Assembly: GCA_023701435.1 (NCBI GenBank)
Contig: JAMPXB010000008.1
Coordinates: 62,001-126,000, forward strand
Direction: 5' to 3'
DNA: 64,000 nucleotides
Origin: Bacteriovoracaceae bacterium
GTDB taxonomy: Bacteria; Bdellovibrionota; Bacteriovoracia; Bacteriovoracales; Bacteriovoracaceae
Shown here: positions 46,372 to 64,000 of the stretch, piece after piece
Numbering within the stretch: the stretch's first letter is position 1
Layout of the letters: the number at the start of each line of letters is the position of its first letter
The notes under the pieces: generated by a model
Seen by the model: only the letters and a program-made list of their open reading frames with translations
Database searches by the model: none
Told to the model about the DNA's origin: nothing
Translations under genes and position numbers: made by a program

Positions 46372-46450
46372 GAACTTAGATTAGCACTTGCCAAGGTTAA
46401 TTGCCATAGCCAACCAAATAGCTTTTGTTTATCTCAAGGTTCCAACCGTT

Positions 46451-46494
46451 TAGACAGGTAAATTTGTCTATATTTGGGGAGGACTTAAAGTCCT
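46451..46494. promoter_or_regulatory. two inverted repeats between the PAS kinase and the giant lipoprotein gene
   Basis: TAGACA and TGTCTA (46451-46470) flank eight bases, and AGGACTT A AAGTCCT (46480-46494) is a palindrome around a central A. They sit in the divergent gap in front of the giant lipoprotein gene, so they could be operator sites controlling that locus or the kinase. The VV-type gene lacks a clear ribosome-binding site near its ATG. Confidence 0.4.
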
Positions 46495-46508
46495 TTAATA
46501 TATTAGTC

Positions 46509-49500
46509 ATGAAAGAACGCACCCATTCCATCCTGTTCATGTTGTTTTTCCTTCTCGCAAGTTGTGTTGGTACTGTGGAAGAGACGGTACCACCTTCAAG
46601 TTTGAAGCTCGAAAATCCACCGACGACTTTTAATTTCCCGGGGATTGTAACGGCAAGAGCTATTTCACATAATAAAGTTGAATTGGAGTTTTTTCCGGCG
46701 AGTGGAGGAGCTGATATCACTTACCAATTGTACGTGAACAATTCCAGCTTACCTATTACTGTTGATCCCAAGGCTTTGCTCTCCATCAATGGGGGGAAAT
46801 TACTCTACACGGTGGACGATTTGTTGGCCGATCGTGAGTATCAATTTAAACTTACCGCCCATAATATTCGTACCAACGCCATCTCTCAAAATGAGAATGA
46901 AACCTATGCACGCACTTTTGATAACGTGGTAGCCGACTTTAATGGAGTTTCAAAATTAAGTTTAGTTCCGGGAAATACTTCAGGGGCCATTCGTGTGGAC
47001 TGGATTGCGCCGGCCATGTCAGGCGTTTTCTCGGCAGGTCCTTTTGACCCTGTTCATTACGAAGTAACCGTTATCAGTGAGATTGGTGGAGTCGCGAATT
47101 TAAACAATCCCACTTATAACGGAACTGATAAAAAAATGGTGTTGGTACCGACTCCTCCAAGTCGTGCTAATCCCTTAAATAATCCTCAGACTATTAATAT
47201 TGATGGTCTTGCAGCAGGCAGACGTTATTACGTTCAAGTCAGGGCGATCAATACTCTCTATCAAAATTATGACGAAGATCCTGCTGTTTCAGTTATTCCT
47301 GTTTCCCGTGAAATTAACACCAAGGCTATATCAATCGTAACAGAACAAGGTGGAACTCTTTTTGATTTCCGTCAGGATAACGTCGTTCTTGCTAACGCTC
47401 CTTCTATTGATGCTTTCGATAAGATTGACATTTTCTGGCAAGCAGGAACCGGAAGCTTTACTGGGTATCGCATTTTTGTACGCAAGTATGATGGTACCGG
47501 TGATCCGGAAGCTGATGACAAATTAACTGAAGCTGTTCTTCATGGCATGAATACCACCATGGATTATAAAGAAATGGATCCGACAGATACCACTTACCGT
47601 AAAAGTGGTCTGGAGCTTTATTCTCATTACCAGGTTAAGGTAGCCCTTTGTAAAACGACCAGCTGTCCCGTCCAGGCAACAGATCCTAATGCGGCAATCA
47701 TCTCTGATCTTAAAACAATTCAGGTCGTTCCGACTTTGGCACCTTTTAGCGGTATCAACAATGTTGAGCCACCAGGCCAATATAGTGAAAGGGACATGGT
47801 TAAACTGAGATTCGATGCTCCGTTAATCGGCTCAGGTTATGCCAATATTGTTGAATTTTATTGTGTAGATCCAGCCGATCATTCAAATATGGCGCTGATG
47901 CAGGAGGGAATCCCTCTCGCGGGTTCAAGTATCAGTCGTTGCAATGGTCTCTATCTTGATGGAACAGCACCGGCTATCTCTACTTATACTTCTCAAAAAG
48001 TTAAAGGGATGATGACTGATGGTAGTACTGAATATTGTTTTGCTGCTACTCCCGCCATTAGTGGGATTGGTGGTGTGGATATTCGTCTCAATGTGGGTGA
48101 AAGGATTGTGAGGTGTTCTTTCCCGGAAGTTCGCCCGCCGAGTATCGCTCAATTTCCAGGTCTTAATGACTCCTGCTCTATCTCAGGTGTTGATGCCTCA
48201 GTCAGTTGGAATCTTCCGACCGGCGGTATCTATTCCGGATTTAAAGTTTTCTGGAAAGAAAAATCAAGTGCTGCGAAGTTCTCCTTTGCTAATGCAATTG
48301 GAGGCTCCTCTGGTTACAGCAGCAGTTTGGATTTAACAGCCAATACTCAGGACTTCACTGTTAACAACTTAATACCAGGTAAGTCTTATCAAATGGGAGT
48401 CCTCGCCGTTGTTGACATGGATCCCTATGATGACCTGTATAGTGAATACAATTTAAAAATTGTGGAATGTAATGTTCCACTCCCTATACCAACCTTTAAA
48501 GGTTTCACCAGAATATTTGCCGTGGGTCCCAAAATGGATGGCAGAATTCCTAATGACTCCACCAAGATGCCGGCCATCACTGGTGCTAACAACTCATTAA
48601 TTTATGAAGCTCTCGACAGTAAGGGAATTCCTTATGAAGTGGCTATGGATAGCGCGAATTCTCCCAACACAACTCTCAATTTCACTGCCCCTCCAGGACG
48701 TGATTATGGAGTGAGTTTTACTGGTGCGTTCGATGGAATCTCTGAGACCACCTTCAACTATGCCATGAGCCGACAAGGGATTGTTTCTTTGGGCTGGCAA
48801 GATGTACAAATGGACTATGCCGCAGCTGACTCTATCTTTACCAGCAACCAGCCAGCAGCTCCAGCTTCCAGGTCAGATCGTAAATGGGGTTATAAAGTTT
48901 ATCGTTCATCGGATAATAAGCTTACCTGGGTAGATCTGACTCAACAAAATGGTCCTGTGTACTCTGAAGATTTCACTTATTATAAAAGAGCTAATGTCAC
49001 CGCCACCATTCAACGCATGGCCTTTTTCACGGATTATTCCGTTAAGGCAATGTATGAAACTCATAATGCTACTACCGGACAAGACATTGAGAGGGCGCGA
49101 ACCTATTATTATAAAATAGTTCCCATCTTTGATGGCAAAGAACTCACTTACGATAGTGGTAAACATCATATCGTTCAAGTGACCCTGCCACCGCCAAATA
49201 TGGCGCTTGTTCACCGCTGGATGGCTAACCGAGCTCGCTGCCTTGAATTGGGTAAGGAGCCAGTTATTGGGAACAACTATAATTGTTCTTACAACGGCAT
49301 TGGCGCAAAACCACAATCCATCCCCCACCAAGTGGGTCAAACTGCTTTGGACCAGGGAGGAGATCTCTTAGTGGATCGTCAGGAATTAGGATGTCGTTAT
49401 ACCCGTGGGGCGAAAACCGCCAATCCGGAAGTAGAAGTTTCCATGTTTAAATTACCTGATGGCACGATCCGTCCCAGCAGTAATGATGACAATCATTTCC

Positions 49501-51902
49501 CTATGTTCAGAGGCTGGCGTACCGCTGGCGGCATAGAAGACACCACCACTGCCTTCCGTGGTTGTACCGGAGAAGATCTTTCAAATCTAGGGAATCAACT
49601 CGACAGCGATTACCCTGCGGGTTTTGTCGCCGAATATCAGCGCTATCTTCAAGGGGACTGCACAGGACCACATCTTCAGCGCCTGGCCTATGATGTTTGT
49701 ACCAGTGATCAGTTTCTGGAAGGCTCTTACGCTAGTTACTACATCAGCACGCCTGGGGTAAGTAATTATAACACGACTCCATATGACTGCTCTGCCAGTA
49801 ACCCAACGAATCCCAGCACAATCACTGAGCGTTTATTGAGTACATGGGCCCCTAATGCGATTATGCAATCAGAATTTCTAGCAGTCTTTTATAACAGCAA
49901 TCCGGCAGGTCTGACTTCTAGTGATAAACACGTGCCGATTCAAGGACCAAGTACCGCCAGTCTAACTGCTAGCCGGGAGTTAAATAGAAGTTGGGCAAAT
50001 GAACCAGGATCCGCTTCATGTTCCATTAACCTGGCCTCCATTGGAAGTGATGGTTTCATGAAACCCCGCTGGCTTTCCATCAATGAGCTAAGCCTTGAGA
50101 ACATCCGCTTTAAGGGTGCATATCCTAATTTACTGAATAAAACCGTCAATGAGATTACCGAAGTCGCCACCACCACCAATGAAGCAGATTTAACCTTCTA
50201 TAATGGAACAGCAGGAGATGGTAACAATGCCGCCTTCACCTTACCAGAAACTACCTTGCGCTCGAGTAACCGTTTCCGCAACACTACACGGATCGCCAAG
50301 ATACTGGCTTCCAATTCGGCTAAGCTTCCTCCTATCGGGCGCTTAAGCTCAAGTGTAGCCGAAGCCTTATGTGAGAGTTTCTTTGTGCAACCAGGAATCG
50401 CTAATGATAGTGGTTCTTTTGTGGCAACGGCGCCGGTTCAAAGTAAACGCAGTCTGCGAAGAATTGAATCAATCGCCGCCAGCGCCTGGTCGGAGACCTA
50501 TAATACGGCTGCCATTCAGAATATCGAAGCCAGTACCAGTGCAGGCAGTTGTGTCAATGCCATAAAAGATGTGAATGAATATATGCCGGTTAAAGGTGGT
50601 CTTCTCCGCAATCACATGACGGTAGGAGGAAGACCCATGATGGACATTCCTTTGATAACCGGCAGCTCTCGTTACAATGGTCTCGCAAGTTACACAGAAC
50701 CTTTTCACTCTGCTAATTGTATCAGCCGTTACGGAATCCAGGATATGGTTGGAAACGTAAGTGAAGATAATAGTGAACGAATTTTTTGTGATTATACCAA
50801 AGATAAAATCCATCTGGGCCCCGTCTCTGGAACCTGGGGAGGCGGACTCAGCGCTCAAAACACTGGGGCCGGCGGCCCTGACTATGATTTTTTTAATACC
50901 AATGAGCAAAAATATAACTGGTCCGTTCTCAGGAGTGGGGATGTCACAGGTCTAGGCTCGACTGGCTTTGAAATTCGCTTCCGCGATGGTTCACCTGCCG
51001 TTACCGATGCCAAGCCTTGGGTTGAAGTCAGTACTGATTCTGGCTACTGCTCTTTTGTAGATAATCTACCGGCAAGACGCTCTGGTGATGGAAACGTCTT
51101 TCGAGACGTTTCCACCAACATCTGGTCTCCTCTCTTTTTACCAGGAGGAGTCATTAATAATGGTATTGTTAATAAGCAGCAAGCTGATCAGGAATCTGTT
51201 CTTACCTGGCGAAATGGTGATGGCCGCTTCATGGACTTTGGACCTCAAGGTCTAGGGCCAGCACTTAAAGAAAAAGATTCACTTGCCCTTTCCGGGGTTA
51301 CAGCTCTTAGTAAGTATTTTAATCCAGTGGTAGGATTGCCTCTCAAGTGTAACTTAAACGGCGGCGCCAGCAGCTGTAATGATAGTTCTCTCTCAAATCC
51401 AAACGATAACACCTCCGTCACCATTGCCAGTCTGGAAGCGAATATTGTTCCAGAAACGGATGACATACCGGCCATTAACAATTTTCCAATAGGAAATTCT
51501 GCCATTACTAACCCTGGTGTGGCCGACTACACCTTTGATGCTCTTGGATACACTCAGACCACAGTGCCAATTTCTGGAGGCTACAGCTCCGCTCATAATG
51601 GACCGATACTGATTGCAGTAGAAGTGGATAATCCGACAACTATGGGAAATCCAGTGGAAATCACCCGAACTTTCCCACAAGACTTCGTTCCAGGTTCGCA
51701 AGCGCAGTACTATAGAGTGATATGGGATCTGGAGCGAGGCACCGATCTGGGCTTAATCTCAGGAGGAGGCTCCAATCAAAGCACCACTGGTCGATTCACC
51801 GCCTCGCTCTCTAAGGTAAGTGTGGGAGATAGCCCACTCGGAACCGGTTCTCATGAGTTTACCCGTGGAACTCGTTGTGCAGTGATGATTAACCAGGATT
51901 AG
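46509..51902 (+). CDS. giant lipoprotein with fibronectin type III repeats and FGE-like end
   Basis: About 1,797 residues. The N-terminus ends in LASC, a lipobox, so it is lipid-anchored, probably on the outer membrane. The first 700 residues hold several fibronectin type III modules (strands ending in Y-x-V-x-V-x-A patterns, such as YYVQVRAIN). The C-terminal half carries a formylglycine-generating-enzyme-like fold (about residues 900-1,550), with YGIQDMVGNVSE as its typical G..DM.GNV motif, but I see no clear catalytic pair. It is followed four bases later by a second giant lipoprotein, in the same direction. The start was chosen at the ATG that gives the lipobox. A role in cell-surface adhesion or motility is inferred. 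Confidence 0.8.
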   Translation: MKERTHSILFMLFFLLASCVGTVEETVPPSSLKLENPPTTFNFPGIVTARAISHNKVELEFFPASGGADITYQLYVNNSSLPITVDPKALLSINGGKLLYTVDDLLADREYQFKLTAHNIRTNAISQNENETYARTFDNVVADFNGVSKLSLVPGNTSGAIRVDWIAPAMSGVFSAGPFDPVHYEVTVISEIGGVANLNNPTYNGTDKKMVLVPTPPSRANPLNNPQTINIDGLAAGRRYYVQVRAINTLYQNYDEDPAVSVIPVSREINTKAISIVTEQGGTLFDFRQDNVVLANAPSIDAFDKIDIFWQAGTGSFTGYRIFVRKYDGTGDPEADDKLTEAVLHGMNTTMDYKEMDPTDTTYRKSGLELYSHYQVKVALCKTTSCPVQATDPNAAIISDLKTIQVVPTLAPFSGINNVEPPGQYSERDMVKLRFDAPLIGSGYANIVEFYCVDPADHSNMALMQEGIPLAGSSISRCNGLYLDGTAPAISTYTSQKVKGMMTDGSTEYCFAATPAISGIGGVDIRLNVGERIVRCSFPEVRPPSIAQFPGLNDSCSISGVDASVSWNLPTGGIYSGFKVFWKEKSSAAKFSFANAIGGSSGYSSSLDLTANTQDFTVNNLIPGKSYQMGVLAVVDMDPYDDLYSEYNLKIVECNVPLPIPTFKGFTRIFAVGPKMDGRIPNDSTKMPAITGANNSLIYEALDSKGIPYEVAMDSANSPNTTLNFTAPPGRDYGVSFTGAFDGISETTFNYAMSRQGIVSLGWQDVQMDYAAADSIFTSNQPAAPASRSDRKWGYKVYRSSDNKLTWVDLTQQNGPVYSEDFTYYKRANVTATIQRMAFFTDYSVKAMYETHNATTGQDIERARTYYYKIVPIFDGKELTYDSGKHHIVQVTLPPPNMALVHRWMANRARCLELGKEPVIGNNYNCSYNGIGAKPQSIPHQVGQTALDQGGDLLVDRQELGCRYTRGAKTANPEVEVSMFKLPDGTIRPSSNDDNHFPMFRGWRTAGGIEDTTTAFRGCTGEDLSNLGNQLDSDYPAGFVAEYQRYLQGDCTGPHLQRLAYDVCTSDQFLEGSYASYYISTPGVSNYNTTPYDCSASNPTNPSTITERLLSTWAPNAIMQSEFLAVFYNSNPAGLTSSDKHVPIQGPSTASLTASRELNRSWANEPGSASCSINLASIGSDGFMKPRWLSINELSLENIRFKGAYPNLLNKTVNEITEVATTTNEADLTFYNGTAGDGNNAAFTLPETTLRSSNRFRNTTRIAKILASNSAKLPPIGRLSSSVAEALCESFFVQPGIANDSGSFVATAPVQSKRSLRRIESIAASAWSETYNTAAIQNIEASTSAGSCVNAIKDVNEYMPVKGGLLRNHMTVGGRPMMDIPLITGSSRYNGLASYTEPFHSANCISRYGIQDMVGNVSEDNSERIFCDYTKDKIHLGPVSGTWGGGLSAQNTGAGGPDYDFFNTNEQKYNWSVLRSGDVTGLGSTGFEIRFRDGSPAVTDAKPWVEVSTDSGYCSFVDNLPARRSGDGNVFRDVSTNIWSPLFLPGGVINNGIVNKQQADQESVLTWRNGDGRFMDFGPQGLGPALKEKDSLALSGVTALSKYFNPVVGLPLKCNLNGGASSCNDSSLSNPNDNTSVTIASLEANIVPETDDIPAINNFPIGNSAITNPGVADYTFDALGYTQTTVPISGGYSSAHNGPILIAVEVDNPTTMGNPVEITRTFPQDFVPGSQAQYYRVIWDLERGTDLGLISGGGSNQSTTGRFTASLSKVSVGDSPLGTGSHEFTRGTRCAVMINQD

Positions 51903-51906
51903 GATC

Positions 51907-54900
51907 ATGTTGAAGCAGTTAATGTTCCTGTCATTTATGTTTTTAATGGGCTGTAATCCCGGCAGTAGTGTCAAAGTGCAAACTGCAGGAATTTATTCTC
52001 CTGTGCTCTATTCCATTAATGACAAGGATGCCTCCGGACAGACGATTGATCTCGGTGAGCACATTCTGACTGATGATCCCATTGCTCTGGTTGTTAAGGT
52101 TTATAATAAGACTGAATATTCTTACACCGATCTGGAAATGGAACTGACTGCGGGGGAAGATCAATCTCCTTCGATTACTTTCATGCCTACTCCCGAAGGA
52201 GAATTGGCTTTTCCGGGACATCAAGGAACTTGCGGAAAAATTCTTCCCTCCAAAAAGACCTGCGAAATCCGACTGGTTTTCTCTCCTCGTGAAGGCCGGG
52301 AATATTTGGAAAAAGCTATTCTCAAATTTAAAAACTATGTGGATCCGGAAGAACATGTTGCTGAACTAAAACTGTTGGCTGGCTTACCAGCTTCACTAAC
52401 ATTCACCAATGATAAAACGCAGTACACATTCGGGGAACTCGTCGGTGTCACTTCCCTTCCCGTCGTGGAGCGAGAAGATAATACCGTTTATTCAGAAGAA
52501 CTGGAAATCATCAACGCCGGAGGACTACCGGCCAAGACTCTAACAGTAACAATGGTAGAAACATGTGCATCAACCACTACCAATGTTTGTCCTACTGGTA
52601 TGTTTGGCGCATACACCATGATTAACCAATGCCCGCTGCAGCTTATGCCCGGTGAGAAATGTAAGGTCAGCGTCAGCTATCTTCCTAAAAATCAGGATCT
52701 GGTCCCTGGACCTACTCCTGAGGAGATGAAAGAAATCAATTACCGCTCAACGGTTAAATTTGATTATGTCAAAGATCCAACGGGAGCCAGCGGTGCCTTG
52801 AACGGTTATTTTAATTCGATTTCATCTAACATTGAGGCACGCTTCAAAGTTTCAATGAGTACCATGAATTTCGAAACCCCTATTGTCTCAGGGAACCGTG
52901 AAACACGTGCTTTCCGAATCAATAACCTCGGTTACCGTGAAGGTGAAATTAAAGGTATTGCCATGCGGGACGTGGATGGCTCTTTAATTGCTTCTTGTAG
53001 TGCCAAAGCTGGCTCCAGTTATCTGGACTGTTTTGATAGCTCTAACAATCTTTTATCGCTGGCCGGTTTTCCCTTTATTTTTAAAGACCGCAATGCCTGC
53101 CTGGCCCCAACTGGACAAACTGGCACGCTGGTCTCGGTCGGCTCGGGTTGTATCTTTGATATTACCTTTCAGCCATCGGTTACCTATCTGACCAATATGC
53201 CTACGCAGTTTCAAAACCTGCAACCCGAGGTAGTCTTTGATTCACGCTGGAAAGGAGCAGAAAAAATTGTCACAAAAAAAATATTCAATCTTTCCGCCTC
53301 TTCGATAGCGGCAGGCCGCTTAGTGCCCTCTAAGTTTCAATTCAATGGCATTGATTATCCAATTACCGGCGAAGCTCCGGGTGAAATTGATCTGGGCAGA
53401 CTGGCCCTGCAATCCCCTGGTTTCTATAAACGTAAACAAATGGTCCTATCTTTTAAAAATATCGGTAATGAGAAAGTTACCAATTTGAATATTAAGGACG
53501 GTTCAGGAAAAACGATACCGGTCGGAGGAACTCCAGTCAATTTAGGTGCTTATGCAAATTACTACTATGTCTCAGTGTCTGCGACAGAAAGTACCTGTAC
53601 CGTCATTAACCCTAATGAAACATGTTCCATCAGTTTGTCTTTTGCTCCTATTGGAAGAGACACCAATGCGGAAGAGACGGCCAATATGTTTGATGCCGTT
53701 GATGAGAACTTAATACCCTACAAGAGCATCATCATTAATTATGACAGTGGGGCCAAGTATACTGATACAAACATTGATGGAGAAACAGACTATACTATCG
53801 CTCCTGCCGAAGCGAGATTTCGGGCCCAGCTCATCCGTAAGGGGATGATGATGGAACTCTCCGATGATAACCGCAACGTAAGTGGCATTGGTCAAAGCAT
53901 CAATGTCATTGGTGACACCTCTATTACTCACATCTATCTTCGAAACATTGGAACTGGTCCAGTTCCCTATATCCGTTATCTGAATCCACCTTCAAGTGCC
54001 ACCGCCAGCATGGTGATTGAAGATACCCCTTCACCAGCATCATTGGGTGCCGAGCATGACTGTCTGGACCTGGTGGATACTACCAGCACCGCCCCAGCCG
54101 GTGCGACTCCGGATCAGCGTATCGGCTTCTACGCCTCTCTGCCTAAAGATGAGTCTTGTGTTTACACCATAAGATATAAAACTCATTCAAGCACAAAGCG
54201 AATCAATGCCACCAACACCTGTAACAATAACTTACCCACTGCTACCAGCATCGAAGAAGGAAGCCGCTTTTATAACCGCGAACTAACCGGTGAGGATATG
54301 TGGGAATACTGCAAAAATCATACACAAAGCCAATTTTTAAACATAAATCTAGACTACTATGATGGAGATGCAAGTGATCCCAACTTGCCTGCCGGATCCA
54401 CCTATGGAACACGATTTTCCATGAATGGTTATAACTACCAATTTAACCAATACATGCCGGCCAGGATTATTCCACATACCTTTACCCCTGCGCTAACGGC
54501 GACCCTCTATCGTCCGTCGATTTCTTATCCAGCACTGAGTGTGGCGCAACCTGCCATCACCGTTGCCGAAAAATGGTTCTATGGACTAGCCTCGGCATTT
54601 TTTTATGACAATGCTGATCCGTCAAATGCCTTTATTAAAGGCAATACATCGGCGAGTTTTGTACCAGGACTCGTGGCCTATGCTAACCGGGCCAATTATG
54701 ATTACATCTTATACTTAGGCAGCTTTCCTCAGGATAGTCCCAATATTGACTTCCCAGTGATGATGGGTAATTTGGGACAAAAGGGAGCCTACATCCAATC
54801 TTTCAATATCACACCTGATGCAAGCTTCACTGTATTGGATTCGCCAACTATACCAATGGTGATAAATGCTAATCAGGATGTAACACCGCTCAATTTTAGA

Positions 54901-57105
54901 TTCACTCCAACTGTGCCTGGTGAGCATCAAATGCTTTTGGAGTTTAGTTATGAGAACGGACGTCACCTCTCTCCTTTGATTTATAAAAGCTCCATGACTC
55001 CAGAGAATCTCGGTACTGCCGGACTAGAAGTCATTAATGCAAAAATTTTAGTGGTCGCCCATGTTCAGGCAACTGGCACTTACCCCTATATTTCCATGAC
55101 CGCCGAAGACTATGAGGTACTAGAAAATCCAGGCACGACTCCTACTGAAACTCTGGGTGCTCCTTATAACGTAAATTTATCCTGGAACAACTCAGCGACC
55201 CAACAGAGTTTAACTTTTGATACTATCAAATTGACGGCCACAGCGACCGCCAACGATGTTTATGCCAAAAAAATTCTAACCTACACTAATAATACCGGCT
55301 ATAGCCTTCAGGATTTTAGAATACTCTATAAAACCGATACCAGTGGTACTACTTCTAAAACGATCACTACCACCTTCGTCACAATGACCGCTGGAACAAC
55401 TTGTACCACTGGCATGACTCTCGCTGCTGGTGCCAGTTGTAAACTAGTCCTGCGCTATCAACCAGGGGCTACCGACACTTCTGATAATTTTGTCATGGCC
55501 CTGATGTACCGTATGGGAGTTGGCCAATATGTTATGCAAAATGTTGGTATCTCCCTATTACCTCGCTCTCCTGGGCAATTAGCCGCAGCAGGCTTGACGG
55601 CTGAAAGTATTAACTACAAAGTCAGTGCAGGCAGCAGTACTATTACCCGCTTTTCCTATCCATTAAGTTTTGGAACATCGACTCTGAATGTGGTTCCTAA
55701 AACTTTTGTTTTTGATCAGTTAGCAGGTGCCTATAAAAAAATTCAATTCACGAACACGCAGTCGACCAAGGCTTCTTTATTGCTGTCTTATCAAAAGTAT
55801 CTGAATACTCATTCTTTACGGGGCTATTCAGTCTCTACCCCTGCTCCAACCTCAGTGGTTCCAGAAGCAGCAGAGTACCGAATTGCTGGTGATGGGAATG
55901 AATACGTCACCATTCATCAAGTCAATTACACCGACAGCGCCACTCGAGTGAAAGTAGAGGGAACGAGAGGATGTCTTTTTGGAGACGATGAAAACAATGC
56001 CGCCATTCCGGCCCACCAAAAAGGTTTTAATAATACCACCAGTACCCCTTGCTATATAATCGTTACCTTTAATGCCAACTTTGAATATTTACGCGAAATC
56101 ATTCAAGTAAATAATGGAGATGATATGCGTGGTACCGCCAGTGAACTCTGGTACTACTCAGTCAACCGAAGTTCGACAGCCTCGGTGTGGGTCCATATTA
56201 AGGGAACAATTAACCCGGACGTTTCTGTCGCCTCTGGTTCTTATAGCAATGTCTCTGCAACGGATAACAAAAGAGCCAGCTTCTATGTTCCTTCCATGAC
56301 TCCGGCCAATGCTTCTATGGGAAGCATTGTGGGAATAAGAGTCTTGATGGCCCAAAGTGCCAGCGGTCTTAACGACCCATATAACACGACTTTAAAGTAT
56401 GTTGATATTCGTCCAGGTTATTACGACCCGATGAACACATATATGGCAGAATTTATCTCTGATCTAACCAATGGGCAGTATCACTGGTTTAGAACCGTGG
56501 CTATCCGTAAAGATGCTCGTTTCCTGGATAATACGATTCCTAAACGTTTTGTGGGTTTGAATGCCAATGAATACTTGTCGGCAACATCTTCTACCACAAC
56601 TCTACAGCTAGTTGTTCCACCGACAGGAAACTACTATTTCCATACCCAAAAATTAATTGTGGAAAAAAGTCTTTACGGTGGTGTGACCTACGACACCTAC
56701 GCAACTGCTTCCGGTCGTTGTACCGGGCGCACCAAGATGACTTTAAAAAATCCAAGTAACGTTTCTTATTCTTATAAACTAATTAATACTACGGCTTGGG
56801 GACTACTATTAAACACTCCTGCAGCCACCAGTTATACCAACATGACCCAGATCTCGCACTGGACATCGGACAACACCGTCAGTATTGATACTAAAGCAGG
56901 CTCTCTGCCAGGTTTTGTACCTAACTCAGCTTCTCAACAACTTGATTCAAGTGGAGTGTTTTACGTCAGAAATAGCTCCAATCCAGCGGCCAATGTTAAC
57001 TGGGCGGTGGGCGGCGTACCAGGAACTACCGTAAGTGACTATGATTCTTACGTCGATGGAACCATTCCTTTTGCTTCTTCCCGCTGTATGGTCGCCTTGC
57101 CCTAG
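51907..57105 (+). CDS. giant lipoprotein with repeated hydin/ASPM-type (choice-of-anchor D) modules
   Basis: A 1,732-residue protein with a lipobox (MGC, Cys16). It is built from about six to eight beta-sandwich modules, each with C-x-I/V-x-x-x-F-x-P near its end: CEIRLVFSP, CKVSVSYLP, CIFDITFQP, CSISLSFAP, CVYTIRYK, CKLVLRYQP and CYIIVTFNA. The paired cysteines (for example CGKILPSKKTC) suggest one disulfide per module. These resemble the ASPM/SPD-2/hydin and choice-of-anchor D domains of large bacterial surface lipoproteins. GGAT lies just before the ATG. It follows the first giant lipoprotein by four bases, so the two are probably made together as surface structures. Confidence 0.82.
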   Translation: MLKQLMFLSFMFLMGCNPGSSVKVQTAGIYSPVLYSINDKDASGQTIDLGEHILTDDPIALVVKVYNKTEYSYTDLEMELTAGEDQSPSITFMPTPEGELAFPGHQGTCGKILPSKKTCEIRLVFSPREGREYLEKAILKFKNYVDPEEHVAELKLLAGLPASLTFTNDKTQYTFGELVGVTSLPVVEREDNTVYSEELEIINAGGLPAKTLTVTMVETCASTTTNVCPTGMFGAYTMINQCPLQLMPGEKCKVSVSYLPKNQDLVPGPTPEEMKEINYRSTVKFDYVKDPTGASGALNGYFNSISSNIEARFKVSMSTMNFETPIVSGNRETRAFRINNLGYREGEIKGIAMRDVDGSLIASCSAKAGSSYLDCFDSSNNLLSLAGFPFIFKDRNACLAPTGQTGTLVSVGSGCIFDITFQPSVTYLTNMPTQFQNLQPEVVFDSRWKGAEKIVTKKIFNLSASSIAAGRLVPSKFQFNGIDYPITGEAPGEIDLGRLALQSPGFYKRKQMVLSFKNIGNEKVTNLNIKDGSGKTIPVGGTPVNLGAYANYYYVSVSATESTCTVINPNETCSISLSFAPIGRDTNAEETANMFDAVDENLIPYKSIIINYDSGAKYTDTNIDGETDYTIAPAEARFRAQLIRKGMMMELSDDNRNVSGIGQSINVIGDTSITHIYLRNIGTGPVPYIRYLNPPSSATASMVIEDTPSPASLGAEHDCLDLVDTTSTAPAGATPDQRIGFYASLPKDESCVYTIRYKTHSSTKRINATNTCNNNLPTATSIEEGSRFYNRELTGEDMWEYCKNHTQSQFLNINLDYYDGDASDPNLPAGSTYGTRFSMNGYNYQFNQYMPARIIPHTFTPALTATLYRPSISYPALSVAQPAITVAEKWFYGLASAFFYDNADPSNAFIKGNTSASFVPGLVAYANRANYDYILYLGSFPQDSPNIDFPVMMGNLGQKGAYIQSFNITPDASFTVLDSPTIPMVINANQDVTPLNFRFTPTVPGEHQMLLEFSYENGRHLSPLIYKSSMTPENLGTAGLEVINAKILVVAHVQATGTYPYISMTAEDYEVLENPGTTPTETLGAPYNVNLSWNNSATQQSLTFDTIKLTATATANDVYAKKILTYTNNTGYSLQDFRILYKTDTSGTTSKTITTTFVTMTAGTTCTTGMTLAAGASCKLVLRYQPGATDTSDNFVMALMYRMGVGQYVMQNVGISLLPRSPGQLAAAGLTAESINYKVSAGSSTITRFSYPLSFGTSTLNVVPKTFVFDQLAGAYKKIQFTNTQSTKASLLLSYQKYLNTHSLRGYSVSTPAPTSVVPEAAEYRIAGDGNEYVTIHQVNYTDSATRVKVEGTRGCLFGDDENNAAIPAHQKGFNNTTSTPCYIIVTFNANFEYLREIIQVNNGDDMRGTASELWYYSVNRSSTASVWVHIKGTINPDVSVASGSYSNVSATDNKRASFYVPSMTPANASMGSIVGIRVLMAQSASGLNDPYNTTLKYVDIRPGYYDPMNTYMAEFISDLTNGQYHWFRTVAIRKDARFLDNTIPKRFVGLNANEYLSATSSTTTLQLVVPPTGNYYFHTQKLIVEKSLYGGVTYDTYATASGRCTGRTKMTLKNPSNVSYSYKLINTTAWGLLLNTPAATSYTNMTQISHWTSDNTVSIDTKAGSLPGFVPNSASQQLDSSGVFYVRNSSNPAANVNWAVGGVPGTTVSDYDSYVDGTIPFASSRCMVALP

Positions 57106-57133: not shown

Positions 57134-57171
57134 TATTCATCTTTAACATTTCAATATGTTAAAGATGAATA
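57134..57171. promoter_or_regulatory. perfect 16-base hairpin covering the start of the next gene
   Basis: TATTCATCTTTAACAT and ATGTTAAAGATGAATA pair perfectly around a six-base loop (TTCAAT). The second arm contains both candidate ATG codons (57156 and 57165) of the barrel gene, and no ribosome-binding site is visible ahead of it. It may hide the start codons until melted, or end transcription after the giant lipoproteins. Confidence 0.65.
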
Positions 57172-58490
57172 AATATTCTCTATTCTTTCTTGTTCTTCTA
57201 CCCCTCCTAGTTTTTGGGGCCGATGAAAAAAAATTGGCGCTCGTACGCCGTATTCAGGGCCTAGAACAATTACCACCTCATCTCTCACGCCAATTACAGA
57301 CACTCACCTTACAAGTGGTCACCAAACAACCGGATTATGAGCTGTTGTTATCAGGTACAGACAGCCCCAATGCCAGCGTCGTTGAATTAGTGGCGGTGGA
57401 ATCAGAAGTTGCCAAACAAGGTGATTACTACCGCATAGAAGCACGCTTACTTAATTTAAAAACAAAAAAACTCATCACTCGCGCCGCTCGTGATGATATT
57501 CGGGAAGAAGATTTAATCCGCCTTTTTCAAGGAGCATTGGAATCGCTCTTTGTGCCTGATATTGAAAAGGAAGCTGCGAAGGAAAAACCTCCTGTTTCAC
57601 CAAAAGAGGTTTCAGTACCTCGCCAAAGTCCACCACCCCCAAGCATGCAGGTTAAGCAGCCGGATCTGCCCACTTTGGATTTCAAGCAACGAGTACGTGA
57701 CTTACAAATTGCAGCCGACAAGGCCATTGTTAAAACAGTTGAGCAAAAAAAAGAACAGGCAGACTCAAAAAAAAACTCTCCAACTGTTAGCCTTCAGGCT
57801 TCTCGCCATGCAGGCATAACTTCGGAAATGGAAGTTCCTTTTAAAAAAGAACCTGCTCCCAAGATTTATCCCCAACGAATGGTTTTAATGGCCGGTTATG
57901 ATTCGCGCCAAGTTGAAAGTGATTACTACCTCATCACCACAACTAAGGCCCAGTTGCTAACTCTTCAATTTGCCGGAGATTATCCGTTCTCTTTAATGGA
58001 TGGCAGAATCGCTACCAGTTATGAGCTCGCCTATAGTCGTGCTGTCTCTGCCCCGGTAGAAGTGCCAAGCCTCTACCAGCTAGGTTTATATGCTTCATGG
58101 CTAGGCACACACTGGAGCACTTCACTGGGCCTTAAACGTGATGCCTCTTTCTTTGTAAACTTACCTGCTCCCGGAGAAGGGATACAATCACAGTCAATCA
58201 CCACCACCTGGCTAAACGCTAAAGCAGATCTTCTGTTTGAGATGTGGGGCCCTTGGCGTATCAACGCCATGTATGGTGTCCCTCTGCAGGTTGAAACCAA
58301 TTATTCCCCTCTCGTCAGCGCTAAACAGTGGCAAGGTACAAATATTCATCTTGCCATCACTCCCCCGCTTAACTTCAAGGGATGGGAGACCAACCTAAGC
58401 CTCGATCAAATTAATCTCACGACACAAGGAGAGAGACCATTTACTCTAAACGAATCGCGTATTGCCTTATCAGTCAGGCGATCGCTTTAA
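57156..58490 (+). CDS. exported protein with proline-rich linker and barrel-like C-terminus
   Basis: A 444-residue protein with a signal peptide (cut near VFGA, about residue 22). Residues 23-135 look like a compact alpha/beta domain resembling a TolB/CsgG-type N-terminus. A Pro/Lys-rich linker (about 140-230) follows. From 240 on there are alternating strands ending with an aromatic-poor SVRRSL, consistent with an outer-membrane barrel. The start codons (ATG at 57156 or 57165) are inside a perfect hairpin. The gene ends 52 bases after the start of the next, so they are translated in tandem. Function unknown; by context, part of the surface locus. Confidence 0.72.
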   Translation: MLKMNKYSLFFLVLLPLLVFGADEKKLALVRRIQGLEQLPPHLSRQLQTLTLQVVTKQPDYELLLSGTDSPNASVVELVAVESEVAKQGDYYRIEARLLNLKTKKLITRAARDDIREEDLIRLFQGALESLFVPDIEKEAAKEKPPVSPKEVSVPRQSPPPPSMQVKQPDLPTLDFKQRVRDLQIAADKAIVKTVEQKKEQADSKKNSPTVSLQASRHAGITSEMEVPFKKEPAPKIYPQRMVLMAGYDSRQVESDYYLITTTKAQLLTLQFAGDYPFSLMDGRIATSYELAYSRAVSAPVEVPSLYQLGLYASWLGTHWSTSLGLKRDASFFVNLPAPGEGIQSQSITTTWLNAKADLLFEMWGPWRINAMYGVPLQVETNYSPLVSAKQWQGTNIHLAITPPLNFKGWETNLSLDQINLTTQGERPFTLNESRIALSVRRSL

Positions 58491-59133: not shown

Positions 59134-59733
59134 ATGAACAGATTATTGATTATCACCGTTTTAAGTTTGGTCGCATCCTCTGCCTGGGCCGCCAAACTTG
59201 TGATCAAAAGCCAGCCAGAAGGTGCCGAAATTTTTATCACAACCAATGGCAAACCAGTCCGCTTGGGGGTTACACCTTACGAGGCCAATTTAACGGAAGT
59301 GATGAGCACTTATGTTAAGTCCAGCAGCTTTATGTTGGAACTTAAAAAGCAGGGACATAACCCTTACCGGGTGCTTTTGGCGAAAACCGATGACGTTGAC
59401 CTGGAATTAACTGCGAACCTTGCCTTAGATCAGGCCGTATCCAACATTAAAGAACACGACGCTCTTATGAACCAGCTCTTTGACGTGCAAAAGCTGGTAC
59501 GTGGAAAAAACTTTCGTGATGCAATTATGAAGCTCGATGAGCTGGAAAAAAAGCATCCCGCTCTTTCAATCATTCCTGAATTGAAAGCGACTGCCTACTA
59601 CATGAATAAAGAAGTGGAAAATGCGCTCAGTTATTACCGTCGTGCGTTTGCACTCAATCCCGATAATCATGATGCTTATCGGATGAAAGTATACCTGGAG
59701 AAGAAAATGGGTATCGACTCGGAGGTTCAGTAA
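59134..59733 (+). CDS. exported PEGA-domain and TPR protein
   Basis: About 199 residues with a signal peptide (cut near AWAA). A PEGA domain follows at about 21-90: SQPEGAEIFITTNGKPVRLGVTPYEANL, the P-E-G-A-x-I/V signature, with VDLELTANL. The C-terminal 90 residues contain TPR-like pairs (RDAIMKLDELEKKHP, ALSYYRRAFALNPDNHDA). PEGA domains occur in cell-surface and gliding proteins. The ATG at 59134 is the first that makes a signal peptide; a longer frame lies over the previous gene. Its stop overlaps the next ATG by one base (TAATG), so it is co-translated with the FliF/FliG-like gene. Confidence 0.8.
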   Translation: MNRLLIITVLSLVASSAWAAKLVIKSQPEGAEIFITTNGKPVRLGVTPYEANLTEVMSTYVKSSSFMLELKKQGHNPYRVLLAKTDDVDLELTANLALDQAVSNIKEHDALMNQLFDVQKLVRGKNFRDAIMKLDELEKKHPALSIIPELKATAYYMNKEVENALSYYRRAFALNPDNHDAYRMKVYLEKKMGIDSEVQ

Positions 59734-61691
59734 TGAAAATTTTTCTGAGCTTAATACTTATGCTTCAAGTAACGTCAGCCTTTTCATTTGGTGGCGGAAC
59801 ATCTCTTACATGGCAAAAACTTGCTTTGGAAGAAAAAGTTCAGCGAAAATTCAACAATACGCTGTCTACTCTTTTAAAAGATAACCAGTACATGGTGGAA
59901 GTTGAGACTGAAATTTCTGAACCGCCTGCTCCGAACTTTGGCCCCAATGGTCACCAATCCGGCTCACGTGTTTCAGACATCAGCCTATCTGAATCTCGCG
60001 GAGATTATATTGCCTTTTCAAAGATGGGTCTGGAAGTTCCGGTATTGGAAAAATTCCTGGATGAAGATCGCACAAAACTGATGAATCTTTACCGCTTCAA
60101 TGAAGCCTATGATCTATTTAAAAATATTTCTGAACTTAAGGTGACAGTTTATTTGAGCGATAAAATCCCTCAAGACCTGGCCGACATTGTTAAAAAAGCT
60201 GTTCAGAATTCTAAGCTTACGGTTTCAGGAATTAAACCAACTGTAAAATTCGAAAGCCTTGCTCTTGAATGGATTGATCCGGCCATTCAGAAAAAACTGG
60301 ATGAAGAAAAAGCAGCTAAAGCAAAAGCCGAAAAAGAAAAGCTCAACCAGAAGAAAACCCAGGAAGAGCCAAAAATCTGGACAAAAGATTGGTATGAATG
60401 GGCTTCCCGCTGGGGTAATGCCTTCGGTCTGATCTTTGGAGCCCTGATTGTCGGTATCATTGCTCTTACTCTCTTCAAGCAATGGAAAGCCTTTATGGAA
60501 AAATTTGCGGCTCTTCAAGCGGCAGCCAATAAGCCCGCCGAGGAAAAAGAAGAAGAGAAAGAAGAAAATGCGGCCATGCAAATGGCACAACCAAACGAAG
60601 TTAATAAGCAGGAGGATGATGTGGCCATTTCACAGGGATTTGATCGATTCCAACAGTGTCTGGAGCAGCATACTGAAGAAGCAGTCAATATGGTTCGTAG
60701 CTGGTTAAATGAAGGCGAAGAACATGATCTGCTTGCCCTACGTGGTATTGCCCAAATGGCAAATGCTGAGCAGATGGAAATATTAATGAATGGATTGACT
60801 GAGACTCAAAGAGATAAATGGAAGGGCCTCCTTGGTAACCATCTGGAGACTGCCGAAATCAATGCGGCCAACAAGCATATTTTCCAGGAAGTGGTTAAAT
60901 CCTTTCTGGTTCCTTCTCGAGTTAAGGATGGAGAACTTCTGAACCTTATCATGGAACTGAGTTCGAAAACGACTTGTGAGTTCTTTGATGCTTACGAGAG
61001 TCAAGTTGGAATTCTGATGAATCTCCTTTCACCAACCGTTATTGGAAAAATCCTGGCCGAGGTTGATGATGCAACAGCTGATTCATGGCTTAATGCTGGT
61101 TCTGATTTTTCTATGAAGCACATGGAAGAAATGTTGCCAGCTTTAAAACAAGCTCTTATTTCCTTTAAAGCGGCAAACTCACCTTCTCCTTTTGCCCACA
61201 GAATTATGTCGATGATTCCGACTGCTACTCCAGCCCGTGAAGGAACACTTTACCGTGCTCTTGCGAAGGCCGGAAATGCAGGGATGGTTTTTGAAATTGC
61301 CAAGAAAAGCTTCCCGAGTGAACTGGTTCTGGATCTACCAGCGCCATTCTTAAAAGAAGTTCTTCAATCATATCCTGTAAGCAAAAGAGTTGAGTTTCTC
61401 TATTCAAGACCTGAAGACGTCCGTGAATCATTACTGGACATGATTGCTGAAGCCGGTTCACCTGCCCGCGATATGATGGACATGGAATTGGAAAACCTAA
61501 GCCGGGATTCGGCCCGTGGTGCAGCGATTGAAGGACGAGCTGAAGATATCTGGCAGGAATTTGTGAAGAACTCACGTATGGGCCTTGCCAAAAATGCCTC
61601 TTACGCAGGTCTGGCCGAGCAACTTATTAAACAGTGGGGCGAAAAGCTCTCTGGCGGTCTCCATGCCATTAAAGGTGGAAAAGCAGCTTAA
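59733..61691 (+). CDS. FliF-like/FliG-like inner-membrane protein
   Basis: A 652-residue protein. A signal peptide (about 1-17) is followed by a periplasmic part (18-225) with segments like the FliF C-terminal region: EEKVQRKFNNTLSTLL, then LKVTVYLSDKIPQDLADIVKKAV. A charged linker leads to a single membrane helix at about 229-250, and the cytoplasmic part (about 290-652) resembles FliG, with repeated helical ARM-like motifs such as ILMNLLSPTVIGKILAEVD and a final domain (about 560-640) holding FLYSRPEDVRESLLDMIAEAG. The resemblance to flagellar MS-ring and switch proteins is by pattern only. It could be a motor-switch part of a gliding machine. The gene follows a PEGA/TPR gene and precedes a terminator. 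Confidence 0.7.
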   Translation: MKIFLSLILMLQVTSAFSFGGGTSLTWQKLALEEKVQRKFNNTLSTLLKDNQYMVEVETEISEPPAPNFGPNGHQSGSRVSDISLSESRGDYIAFSKMGLEVPVLEKFLDEDRTKLMNLYRFNEAYDLFKNISELKVTVYLSDKIPQDLADIVKKAVQNSKLTVSGIKPTVKFESLALEWIDPAIQKKLDEEKAAKAKAEKEKLNQKKTQEEPKIWTKDWYEWASRWGNAFGLIFGALIVGIIALTLFKQWKAFMEKFAALQAAANKPAEEKEEEKEENAAMQMAQPNEVNKQEDDVAISQGFDRFQQCLEQHTEEAVNMVRSWLNEGEEHDLLALRGIAQMANAEQMEILMNGLTETQRDKWKGLLGNHLETAEINAANKHIFQEVVKSFLVPSRVKDGELLNLIMELSSKTTCEFFDAYESQVGILMNLLSPTVIGKILAEVDDATADSWLNAGSDFSMKHMEEMLPALKQALISFKAANSPSPFAHRIMSMIPTATPAREGTLYRALAKAGNAGMVFEIAKKSFPSELVLDLPAPFLKEVLQSYPVSKRVEFLYSRPEDVRESLLDMIAEAGSPARDMMDMELENLSRDSARGAAIEGRAEDIWQEFVKNSRMGLAKNASYAGLAEQLIKQWGEKLSGGLHAIKGGKAA

Positions 61692-61764: not shown

Positions 61765-61853
61765 AGACGGGGAAAACAATTCCAATCTATTAAATGTTTC
61801 TTTATTCCCTTAATCTTTATTAATGAAATAACTCACCTTTGACAGGAGGTCAT

Positions 61854-62357
61854 GTGAGCGATTTTGACAAAGAGCTGCCTCGTATTCCAGAGACTTCAGA
61901 GAGGTCGAATTCAGCTGTTATTCCTTCCGAAGAACTCACCCTAAACTGGAAGAGCGCTCTATCTCTTGCCCTCTGTAAAACTGAAAGTTTACAGGCCACC
62001 GAGAGAGCATGGTCACAATTATGTTCATCCATCCGCGATCTGTGTCCTGAAACGACCTGGATCACAATTGCTGAGAGTCATGAGATTCATAATCTTCAAT
62101 CAGTTAAATCATTTCAAACCTGGCTTGAGGCATTGATAGCTACACCAGAATGGCCTTTTCCCAAGCAGGTTATCATCACTACTTCAGGTGACAAAAATCA
62201 TTCCTGGAAAATTTTATTTGAAAAAAGTATTTCCAAAATACCATTCACAACTCCGCCCAAGGGTTTAAGTATTTCGCCTTGGAAGGATAAGCACAATAGT
62301 GGTTGGAAAGTTATGGCAGTTGATACCTTCAATGTGAATAAAGCGGGTGAAGCATGA
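61854..62357 (+). CDS. soluble protein, unknown (GTG start)
   Basis: About 167 residues, cytoplasmic, without signal peptide or membrane helix. AGGAGG lies about five bases before the GTG at 61854; a TTG at 61839 is the only other choice and overlaps that site. It opens with an acidic, probably disordered stretch (1-25), then has a helical and beta-strand core with two tryptophans near the end. It overlaps the next gene by four bases (ATGA), so the two are co-translated. No family is recognised. Confidence 0.65.
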   Translation: MSDFDKELPRIPETSERSNSAVIPSEELTLNWKSALSLALCKTESLQATERAWSQLCSSIRDLCPETTWITIAESHEIHNLQSVKSFQTWLEALIATPEWPFPKQVIITTSGDKNHSWKILFEKSISKIPFTTPPKGLSISPWKDKHNSGWKVMAVDTFNVNKAGEA

Positions 62358-63655
62358 AATTTTTCTCTTTATGTCTAATGAGCGTTCTTTATACGGCACC
62401 AGTACTCGCCTCCACAGACTATGCCTCAATGCTTAACAAGCTGGATCAAAAGATTGCCCAGCTAGAAAATCAAAAGCACACTCATACTCCTGACAGAGTC
62501 GTAACTGTTCCATGGAGTGTTGTAGATAAACGTGAAGGAAATTTGTGGTCTGCCATTACTCAGAGCTATGATTTCCTAAGAAGCTATTATGTCTCTGAGA
62601 GATACAATTATCTTTATGAAGGAATGAAAGCTAATTCTTTGGGCCATCCGCAACGGATTAATTCATTAAAAACGTGGATCCAGAAAGAAAACAAGCTCTT
62701 GCTCTCAAAGAGATTAAATCCCAAATTTTATAATGAGTGGAATGGGCATGTCTCAAAAATCAAATCCGCTATCGATGAAATCGCCAAGCCTCGCCCGGAA
62801 GTCAGATCAGTCGTGGCCGGTAAAGACTTGCAAAATGAACAATATCTTTTTTTAAAAGAAGTTAAAAAAGAACTCCAAGCTCTGGAAAAATCCACCAAGC
62901 CACAAGTTATCACCGTGTTGGATAAACACCCCGAGGTCATGGAGACAGCACCCACTTTTATGGAAACGCTGGGAAGTAACAACGGCTTGATGATCCTTGG
63001 AGGCCTTAACGTTCTGACACTTGGATTTTTCTTATTCGGCAGAAAAAATAACAAGAAAAAAGTAAGAAGAGTAAATACCAGAACAGTACCTTCAAATCCT
63101 GTTTATGATCTGCCTCCTCTCCCCATTGAAGCGATGGAAGCCAGTTCATTAGATAATGCCATGGATCTCGAGATGGACAGCACTGAAACAATCCATCCAG
63201 GGATTAGCCTTGAAGAAGAATGTATCAAGGTTATTGAAGAGAATGATCATCTTTTAAAGATTGCCGATATTAAGGTTTATCCTGTTAATCGTAGTCCCTT
63301 TAAGACCAATGTTCATGTTCCTCAAGAAAAGGTCACAGAGGCCCTTGGGTGGCTTTTAAAGGGCACTATTGCCATTGCCAACACAACAGGCTCTAAAATT
63401 TCACACATGGAATGGAATTGCCGGGAAAATGGCGGAAGAGTTTCGCTAGACCTGGTTTTACACGGCCTAGAGTGTGATTATAAATCACTTTATCTCAACG
63501 CTCTGGTTGAAGGTGATGGCTCCGCTCCTGCTCACTTTGGCAGAACAGAAATGGCCTTGGACGGGCATTTACCTTCAGTGATGTTCAAGAAGGGAAATAA
63601 AAAGACCACTATTTCTCTGGGTGTTGATTCTCACGGTCATTCACTAAGTCACTAA
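62354..63655 (+). CDS. signal-peptide and single-TM protein with cytoplasmic domain, unknown
   Basis: A 433-residue protein with a signal peptide (cut near VLAS, about residue 19), a periplasmic helical part (20-205) with heptad-like spacing near the start, one membrane helix at about 210-232 (MILGGLNVLTLGFFLFG) followed by basic residues, and a cytoplasmic part (about 280-433) with a GHGH-rich end. The orientation is the same as the FliF/FliG-like protein (periplasm first, then cytoplasm), which suggests they share a complex. I could not match the cytoplasmic domain to a family. Confidence 0.65.
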   Translation: MKFFSLCLMSVLYTAPVLASTDYASMLNKLDQKIAQLENQKHTHTPDRVVTVPWSVVDKREGNLWSAITQSYDFLRSYYVSERYNYLYEGMKANSLGHPQRINSLKTWIQKENKLLLSKRLNPKFYNEWNGHVSKIKSAIDEIAKPRPEVRSVVAGKDLQNEQYLFLKEVKKELQALEKSTKPQVITVLDKHPEVMETAPTFMETLGSNNGLMILGGLNVLTLGFFLFGRKNNKKKVRRVNTRTVPSNPVYDLPPLPIEAMEASSLDNAMDLEMDSTETIHPGISLEEECIKVIEENDHLLKIADIKVYPVNRSPFKTNVHVPQEKVTEALGWLLKGTIAIANTTGSKISHMEWNCRENGGRVSLDLVLHGLECDYKSLYLNALVEGDGSAPAHFGRTEMALDGHLPSVMFKKGNKKTTISLGVDSHGHSLSH

Positions 63656-63670
63656 ACAACAGATCAAAAT

Positions 63671-63699
63671 AAAAAAACCGCCCGAGGGCGGTTTTTTTT
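63671..63699. terminator. bidirectional rho-independent terminator
   Basis: CCGCCC and GGGCGG with a short loop are flanked by A7 on the left and T8 on the right, so both strands carry a stem followed by a T run. It ends the surface-locus transcript and the convergent gene at the right edge. Confidence 0.9.
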
Positions 63700-64000
63700 A
63701 TTTCTTTTCCTGAACTTCAGTTGCTTCAACTTCTTTAAACAATGCTGTATCCGATGCTGGCGGTGCTCCTTCGGCATCCTGGAACAGAACCCCTACTCGA
63801 ACATTGGCCTTTTTATTGCCAACTGGTTCCAGTACTCTGATCACTGCTCTTCTATTGAGCTTGGCGATCTCACGAGGTGGCACACCGTTTTTGGCCTTAG
63901 CCTTATACTCAGAGACCGGTTCGCGGTCGCCTTTGGCCACAGCTGCCATGTACTCACCTTTAAAGCCAAAATACTCAAAACGAGCTGCCACCGTAGCCGA
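63698..64000 (-). CDS. hypothetical protein (partial, N-terminus off window)
   Basis: The open frame continues past the right edge; a GTG at 63991 could be the start, but no ribosome-binding site can be judged in the eight bases beyond it. The visible 97-100 residues are soluble and charged, with a strand-rich centre (RAVIRVLEPVGNKKANVRVGVLF) and a Glu/Lys tail ending at EKK. No family is recognised. It ends inside the bidirectional terminator. Confidence 0.55.
   Translation of the reverse strand, partial: SATVAARFEYFGFKGEYMAAVAKGDREPVSEYKAKAKNGVPPREIAKLNRRAVIRVLEPVGNKKANVRVGVLFQDAEGAPPASDTALFKEVEATEVQEKK

Follow-up and report, generated by a model that had tools for sequence, protein, structure and literature searches.

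A membrane-anchored FliG-like protein encoded near MotAB genes in Bdellovibrionota: a candidate rotor subunit for an envelope motor separate from the flagellum

Can the core of the flagellar motor, a ring pushed by MotA/MotB stators, be encoded apart from a flagellum? This question is raised by a gene in a stretch of 64,000 nucleotides from a Bacteriovoracaceae bacterium (GenBank assembly GCA_023701435.1, contig JAMPXB010000008.1, positions 62,001 to 126,000; the whole stretch is called the window here), which encodes a single protein with a FliF-like periplasmic part and a FliG-like cytoplasmic part. An initial annotation, made from the letters alone, had taken it for a motor-switch module of a non-flagellar machine. 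The reading proposed here, to which we give a probability of about two in three, is that this protein (the rotor protein below) supplies the rotor subunit of an ion-driven motor in the cell envelope that is dedicated and separate from the flagellum. All evidence on the protein and its machine is computational, and four computed features carry the reading: the architecture of the protein, its homology to FliG, the linkage of its gene to MotAB genes whose MotAs form a clade, and its retention in a draft genome in which no flagellar genes were detected.

Layout of the rotor protein and its likeness to FliG and FliF

The features of the gene are as follows.
59733-61691, forward strand: fused rotor-like protein, 652 residues, with signal peptide, periplasmic domain, transmembrane (TM) helix and FliG-like cytoplasmic part
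59802-60260, forward strand: periplasmic alpha/beta domain resembling the third ring-building motif (RBM3) of FliF, residues 24-176 (AlphaFold2, profile against PDB, hhalign, Foldseek)
60417-60476, forward strand: single TM helix, about residues 229-248 (hydropathy; AlphaFold2 helix within 218-265)
60594-61652, forward strand: FliG-like cytoplasmic helical part, residues 288-640 (AlphaFold2, Foldseek, profiles, hhalign)
61353-61493, forward strand: charged helical segment aligned with the FliG torque helix, residues 541-587 (family counts, FliG alignment)

Hydropathy places two hydrophobic stretches in the protein, at residues 1-21 and about 226-255, the second directly followed by three K/R and one D/E. 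An AlphaFold2 model built from 11 homologues (mean pLDDT 72.6, pTM 0.38) has an alpha-beta...beta-alpha-beta order at residues 24-176 and a membrane helix within 218-265; residues 288-640 form helices. The open reading frame (ORF) and the annotated layout, with signal peptide, one membrane helix and a helical cytoplasmic part, are confirmed. FliF has RBM1, RBM2 and a first TM helix; the rotor protein differs in having one internal TM helix and one periplasmic domain, RBM1/RBM2 and a pair of TM helices not being found. Its start codon overlaps the stop codon of the preceding PEGA/TPR gene by one base (TAATG), which suggests translational coupling.

On profile and fold comparison, the cytoplasmic part is homologous to flagellar FliG. 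A profile of the rotor family (A1) searched against 177,635 distinct PDB sequences had FliG as its three best matches (E 5.5e-7 to 3e-5), and the same profile picked flagellar FliG ORFs among 5154 fetched ORFs (E 3.6e-6 to 4.2e-4). FliG also came first with profile A3 (E 1e-25; MgtE 0.33) and with profile A6, aligned from eight rotor proteins chosen by likeness (E 1.1e-28). When the model was compared with the PDB by Foldseek, ranks 1-12 went to FliG or to C-ring chains as long as FliG (for 8wiw_3 and 8wo5_B5 the assignment to FliG is by length), with a best E of 2.5e-3, none below 0.001, and probabilities of 0.92-1.00. The TM-scores by query are low (0.12-0.22), as is expected of jointed domains.

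Pfam was run on 21 rotor proteins, some of them from loci other than those counted below (L-numbers designate fetched loci, G-numbers genomes, and the C1 family is the rotor cluster that holds the window protein). FliG_C and/or FliG_M exceeded the cut-off in 15 of the 21, and relatives carry the two domains in the correct order. These 15 comprise five of seven proteins in one set (L149, L150, L151, L081 and L082) and all ten in another, which includes L165, the probable Bdellovibrio bacteriovorus HD100 homologue (FliG_C 4.6e-10); the window protein, L013, L014, L015, L074 and L080 stayed below it. In the window protein no FliG or FliF family (PF08345 included) was found by Pfam, the best signal being MgtE_N at 1.2e-4, below the cut-off, and the other matches weaker and unrelated; its likeness to FliG is seen by profile and fold. 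Used singly against the PDB (phmmer) or against the FliG of its own genome (BLASTP), the protein gave nothing significant. In hhalign's local mode the C1 family scored 96.3% against L151 over 499 columns and 22.4% against FliG directly; for L151 the target C5 stood above FliG (26.5% vs 11.9%). The gap between the C1 family and FliG is closed by more distant relatives of the same layout.

In the segment aligned with the torque helix, an acidic residue is kept at position 585 in 46/46 C1-family proteins, K/R at 541 in 40/46 and R at 579 in 29/46, some of the 46 being close relatives. These charged residues may correspond to positions of E. coli FliG, on a weak alignment (22.4%). The FliM-binding motif of FliG, EHPQ, is by eye not kept in the window protein, where the aligned segment reads AYESQVGIL (hhalign alignment), and the switch role first assigned to it is not supported. 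Unlike the separate soluble FliG of a flagellar operon, the rotor protein is membrane-anchored, 652 residues long and not encoded next to fliF; a normal fliF-fliG pair lies on contig C4 of the same genome. Besides this flagellar FliG, that genome has four further FliG_C/FliG_M matches in frames of 144-265 residues (L002, L003, L004 and G000:C3:53799-54008).

The periplasmic domain is probably RBM3-like. With profile A5, aligned from 41 of 42 non-redundant rotor periplasmic parts (L086 was left out), the three best of the 177,635 PDB sequences were FliF (E 0.12-0.29), and a ribosomal protein came next (0.32). FliF 6scn was matched by profile A3 at E 0.012, over the RBM3 segment, and by A1 at E 0.12, over the membrane helix and tail. 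With the periplasmic profiles of A6 (E 0.001) and A5 (E 0.0068), FliF came first among 35 hhalign targets; the runners-up stood at 0.02 and 0.17, respectively. End-to-end alignment gave 67.2% for C1 against FliF (E 6.7e-6; best decoy 0.4%), 0.6% for C33 and 0.2% for L149; the local mode, which was weighed over this result, gave 2.8% for C1. A periplasm-only AlphaFold2 model (pLDDT 83.2) retrieved FliF/YscJ-type proteins in Foldseek, with a best E of 0.04, interleaved with OsmC/Ohr proteins. The annotated order, FliF then FliG, is thus as predicted, with homology shown for FliG and suggested for RBM3 of FliF, which ranks first repeatedly without an individually significant score or a Pfam match.

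Linked stators, a genome without detected flagellar genes, and other neighbours

Neighbouring genes were surveyed by ORF clustering over 41 fetched loci and the window (42 in all), and then by hidden Markov model counts over 59 rotor loci, which are 62 less a duplicate (L027), a contig end (L038) and a locus whose rotor was lost in ORF picking (L184). The partner profiles were built from the same loci in which they were counted, and near relatives and loci of one genome (such as L074/L169, L069/L171 and L022/L084) were counted separately. MotA is present at 40 and MotB at 40 of the 59 loci, both at 38; where at least 6 kb is available on each side of the rotor gene, both are found in 30/40. 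By a rough estimate that assumes three to five MotA-type genes in a genome of ~3.6 Mb, chance would place MotA within 10 kb at only a few percent of loci. A PEGA/TPR protein is encoded near the rotor gene at 54/59 loci, at 47 of them on the same strand within 500 bp, and a small probable outer-membrane barrel at 39/59. The conserved partners of the rotor are this PEGA/TPR protein, the small barrel and MotAB, and the linkage is new here.

The linked stators fit the flagellar MotAB type. In L022, the one linked pair scanned with Pfam, the MotA_ExbB family (PF01618, 5.6e-17), MotB_plug (4.8e-10) and the OmpA domain (9.3e-12) were found, and the channel Asp motif is present in 26/26 cluster MotBs longer than 180 residues. 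A tree was built from 60 MotA-like proteins, 43 rotor-linked (the MotA of the window species being called linked by inference) and 17 not (of which L217, L224, L226 and L229 look ExbB/TolQ-like); L027 and rows under 201 residues were left out. One clade of 44 rows (bootstrap 95, SH-aLRT 97) holds 41/43 of the linked proteins and 3/17 of the unlinked, and these three share a contig with a rotor gene, 18-27 kb away. L172_14 and L178 are linked MotAs outside the clade, and several rows of the tree are long-branched. The co-occurrence with MotAB-like genes that had been put forward as a check is borne out by the 38 loci and by this clade.

HD100 has three motAB pairs, according to one study (PMC11323537). 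In the probable HD100 genome, MotA1 and MotA3 fall outside the rotor-linked clade and the third MotA falls inside it, encoded in the rotor cluster at 2919.3-2920.2 kb. The rotor gene of this genome (G146:C1:2913423-2915153, reverse strand) encodes 577 residues. In that study, FliL (Bd1076) bound MotB3, and no interaction was detected with MotA3, MotA2 or MotB2 (PMC11323537), which fits a separate role for MotAB2 without proving it.

FliF_C was searched for in 57 genomes from the A1 match list, nearly all rotor-positive (in G144 and G176 the profile matches were to FliG-sized frames only), and was present in 55. G079 (83% complete) is without FliF_C, yet FlhA and six rod matches were found in it. 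G105 (94% complete, 2% contamination) gave no FliF_C, FlhA or rod match in a search that did not include the FliG_C and flagellin families, and in each of six comparison genomes FlhA was found together with six or seven rod matches. G105 carries the rotor gene twice, both times with MotAB. It encodes eight PF01618 proteins, of which the two linked to a rotor, and no others, score as MotA with the linked-MotA profile (E 4e-104 and 8e-114), the other six reaching 4e-8 or weaker, or nothing; each rotor-linked MotA is followed by MotB. From the tree used for the MotA/ExbB-family proteins of G105, six long-branch rows were left out. Missing contigs are hard to blame for the loss of several unlinked flagellar loci alongside the retention of two rotor-stator sets, although this is a single draft genome, and the non-flagellar machine proposed at the outset is supported by it.

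The genes around the rotor gene in the window are the following.
59134-59733, forward strand: PEGA/TPR periplasmic protein, 199 residues from an internal ATG, overlapping the rotor start codon
58520-59074, forward strand: small probable outer-membrane beta-barrel protein, 184 residues, start uncertain (cluster C2)
57156-58490, forward strand: probable barrel protein, 444 residues, with N-terminal periplasmic domain (cluster C5, 18/42 loci)
51907-57105, forward strand: giant putative lipoprotein, 1732 residues, lipobox-like MGC (cluster C7, 8/42 loci)
46425-51902, forward strand: giant putative lipoprotein, 1825 residues from TTG, lipobox-like ASC (cluster C6, 9/42 loci)
43786-46371, reverse strand: histidine kinase with several PAS domains (Pfam), just upstream of the giant lipoprotein genes
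61839-62357, forward strand: 172-residue protein (cluster C15, 3/42 loci, the window and two others only)
62354-63655, forward strand: 433-residue protein with signal peptide-like start, one TM helix and cytoplasmic part, by eye (cluster C16)
63698-64000, reverse strand: C-terminal, peptidoglycan-binding part of MotB, cut by the window end (SYADLMSL motif)

In the PEGA/TPR protein, PEGA is below the Pfam cut-off (E 0.087) and TPR_14 above it. Neither the 184-residue nor the 444-residue protein has a Pfam match, and their barrel nature is deduced from the sequence. The giant lipoproteins, which had been taken as the context of a surface machine, occur in only nine and eight of the 42 loci. Also confined to the window and two other loci (3/42) is the 433-residue protein, whose cytoplasmic part may be, by eye, a degenerate ATPase-like domain. 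The MotB that runs off the window end is complete in its contig (260 residues, contig C41), and a MotA of 266 residues stands at the very start of contig C25 of the same genome; an assembly gap has probably divided the set.

Ten of the window's larger ORFs were scanned with Pfam, which returned TPR, barrel, helicase, nuclease, Fe-S, tRNA ligase and histidine kinase matches, and none for one ORF; no gliding gene cluster was recognized among these ten, a scan in which no Agl/Glt profile was included. No rod, hook or export genes were recognized in the rotor clusters, most neighbours outside the core families lying beyond the scans. At L216 and L232 a PEGA/TPR gene lies beside motA/motB, with no rotor gene in the fetched stretch of ~5 kb.

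The proposed motor and its alternatives

The observation made in the initial annotation is confirmed and its interpretation is supported, in a stronger form than it was given; the FliF half and the purpose of the machine are less firm. Beyond the computed features, we infer that the protein assembles into a ring, that the ring rotates and torque is transferred, and that the motion serves surface movement, including gliding. Copies of the rotor protein would assemble, like FliF, into an inner-membrane ring by way of their periplasmic RBM3-like domains, and their FliG-like arms would form a cytoplasmic ring in the same chain, MS ring and C ring being one protein. Peptidoglycan-anchored MotA/MotB, encoded nearby, would draw on the ion gradient, push against the charged FliG_C-like helix and so turn the ring. 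The PEGA/TPR protein and the small outer-membrane barrel may carry or hold the motion across the envelope, and in the window species it is perhaps passed to the giant surface lipoproteins.

Such a motor would share with the flagellar one an RBM3-like periplasmic domain, a TM helix and a FliG_M/FliG_C-like part in its rotor, and neighbouring MotA/MotB with channel Asp and OmpA-type anchor. It would differ in that the rotor is one chain, not two, without RBM1/RBM2 and the first TM helix and, in the window protein, without the FliM-binding motif; one draft genome in which no flagellar genes were detected moreover retains the rotor, and no rod, hook or export genes were recognized in its partly scanned clusters. 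To our knowledge, flagella are the only machines in which MotAB is known to act on FliG, and the literature that was searched gave no other. A one-chain MS/C ring is mechanically plausible, because engineered full-frame FliF-FliG fusions of Salmonella assemble rings (PMC6079021). Those fusions and the FliF/FliG chain of PDB 8z4d are joined by design, whereas the rotor family is natural, shorter and encoded near stator genes of its own. The Agl/Glt system of Myxococcus (AglRQS) is similar in coupling an ion-driven stator-type motor to the envelope and to outer-membrane proteins; we know of no FliF/FliG-like rotor in it. AglRS group with ExbBD/TolQR in a generic clade, according to PMC12505986.

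More tentative, and in our judgement possible though doubtful, is the joint claim that the cluster encodes an undescribed ion-driven rotary machine with a one-chain rotor and its own MotAB clade, coupled to outer-membrane parts and without rod, hook, filament or export gate, which is the missing gliding motor of Bdellovibrionota, represented in HD100 by the motA2/motB2 cluster. According to section 8 of a 2026 review, the machinery by which Bdellovibrio glides "remains unidentified", and finding its motor is "a major open challenge" (PMC13104615). Among the titles and abstract openings searched, which covered few subscription papers or preprints, none describes the rotor protein or its cluster, and the same holds for Bd3016-Bd3021. 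If the main reading is true, a second, flagellum-free machine with the same rotor-stator logic would show how the core of the flagellar motor can serve, or once served, by itself; and the cluster, which B. bacteriovorus HD100 apparently has as well, offers a concrete candidate for the gliding motor, open to knock-out.

Several findings weigh against the reading as a dedicated motor. Flagellar FliF_C is present in 55/57 tested genomes, so that independence from the flagellum rests on one draft metagenome-assembled genome (MAG). At 21/59 rotor loci the fetched stretch did not yield both MotA and MotB. The window protein matched 10/38 near relatives (nine among the 24 listed as its own genome or genus), a patchy distribution that fits a universal motility motor poorly. 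It lacks any FliG Pfam match, and no FliF Pfam family is listed for any of the 21 scanned rotor proteins. FliF, first in Foldseek, A5 and hhalign, is never individually significant, and OsmC/Ohr folds score like it in Foldseek of the periplasmic part. Profile A6 gave no plain FliF chain in the PDB up to E 10: the FliF in its list is the 8z4d fusion chain only, and over the periplasmic part all plain FliF chains were outscored by an unrelated one, 4opw (E 0.011). A study title in the reference list of PMC11323537 states that three Bdellovibrio motAB pairs contribute to single-flagellum motility, and one of the three is probably the rotor-linked pair, which speaks against exclusive use in a separate motor.

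The presence of flagellar FliF in 55 of the 57 genomes and the cited action of all three motAB pairs on one flagellum (PMC11323537, reference list) would also suit an auxiliary flagellar part, which we consider unlikely: an extra ring, an alternative C ring or a scaffold that recruits stators of a type of its own, like the E-ring or disc proteins elsewhere. Domains of the MgtE_N/ARM type also build E-rings, the motor of B. bacteriovorus shows an E-ring, and the MgtE_N-type head domains are described as similar to the ARM-like motifs of FliG (PMC13023049). The E-ring proteins FlgY, FlbB and MotE resemble the rotor protein in this domain type and in their association with stators. They are 172-264 residues long, according to the same source (PMC13023049), and carry a periplasmic ARM domain after an N-terminal TM helix, whereas the ARM-like part of the rotor protein is C-terminal to an internal TM helix and should lie on the cytoplasmic side. 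An E-ring/MotE protein as such is rejected on this topology and on FliG_C in the relatives. A role within the flagellum is further opposed by the separate clade of 41/43 linked MotAs, by the two rotor and MotAB sets that G105 keeps without a FliF, FlhA or rod match, and by the clusters, in which no rod, hook or export genes were recognized, with neighbours outside the core families mostly unscanned.

Improbable, in turn, is a non-rotating ring or scaffold, such as a YscJ-like secretion or adhesion base, with MotAB as an ExbBD/TolQR-like energizer and the FliG-like arms serving assembly only. Alongside FliF, the periplasmic model also retrieves YscJ/PrgK-type proteins, the window protein and the three C1 relatives scanned have diverged from the Pfam FliG models, and the neighbours are a probable outer-membrane barrel and, at some loci, giant lipoproteins, all of which would suit such a base. 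The stator pair of L022 is nevertheless of MotA/MotB type, with an OmpA peptidoglycan-binding domain and MotB plug, and the acidic residue of the torque-helix segment is kept in 46/46 proteins. A generic ARM/MgtE_N helical similarity in a cluster unrelated to motors, to which the sub-cut-off MgtE_N signal of the window protein (1.2e-4) might point, is very improbable and is rejected as the source of the likeness, FliG standing far ahead of MgtE in the A3 PDB search (1e-25 vs 0.33), with FliG_M and FliG_C in the right order in relatives and MotAB linked to the rotor loci.

Distribution, subtypes and smaller relatives

Profile A1 matches 75/368 and profile A4 72/368 Bdellovibrionota genomes, tallies that include flagellar FliG matches and are not summed. 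A nine-residue pattern scan of genome contigs, for the rotor the only search that reached beyond Bdellovibrionota, gave 18 loci in Bdellovibrionota-type MAGs or in unassigned Proteobacteria/Deltaproteobacteria MAGs. The rotor proteins fall into several subtypes: C1, as in the window, C33, an HD100-like subtype of ~580 residues and longer tandem-domain forms. Variants of about 740-800 residues (L149, L150, L172 and L173) appear by eye to have two tandem periplasmic ring-like domains before the TM helix.

Soluble homologues of ~360 residues that correspond to the cytoplasmic part of the rotor protein only are encoded at L016:1390-2499, L017:1501-2589 and L018:1390-2460. They adjoin a frame of 470-505 residues, of which two were scanned without a Pfam match over the cut-off, and the genomes concerned also carry a full rotor. 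Conversely, a 342-residue protein that clusters with the rotor (L151:6217-7242) has, by eye, a similar periplasmic domain and TM helix and no FliG part; its gene directly precedes that of a full rotor (7242-9125), and the two may form a mixed ring.

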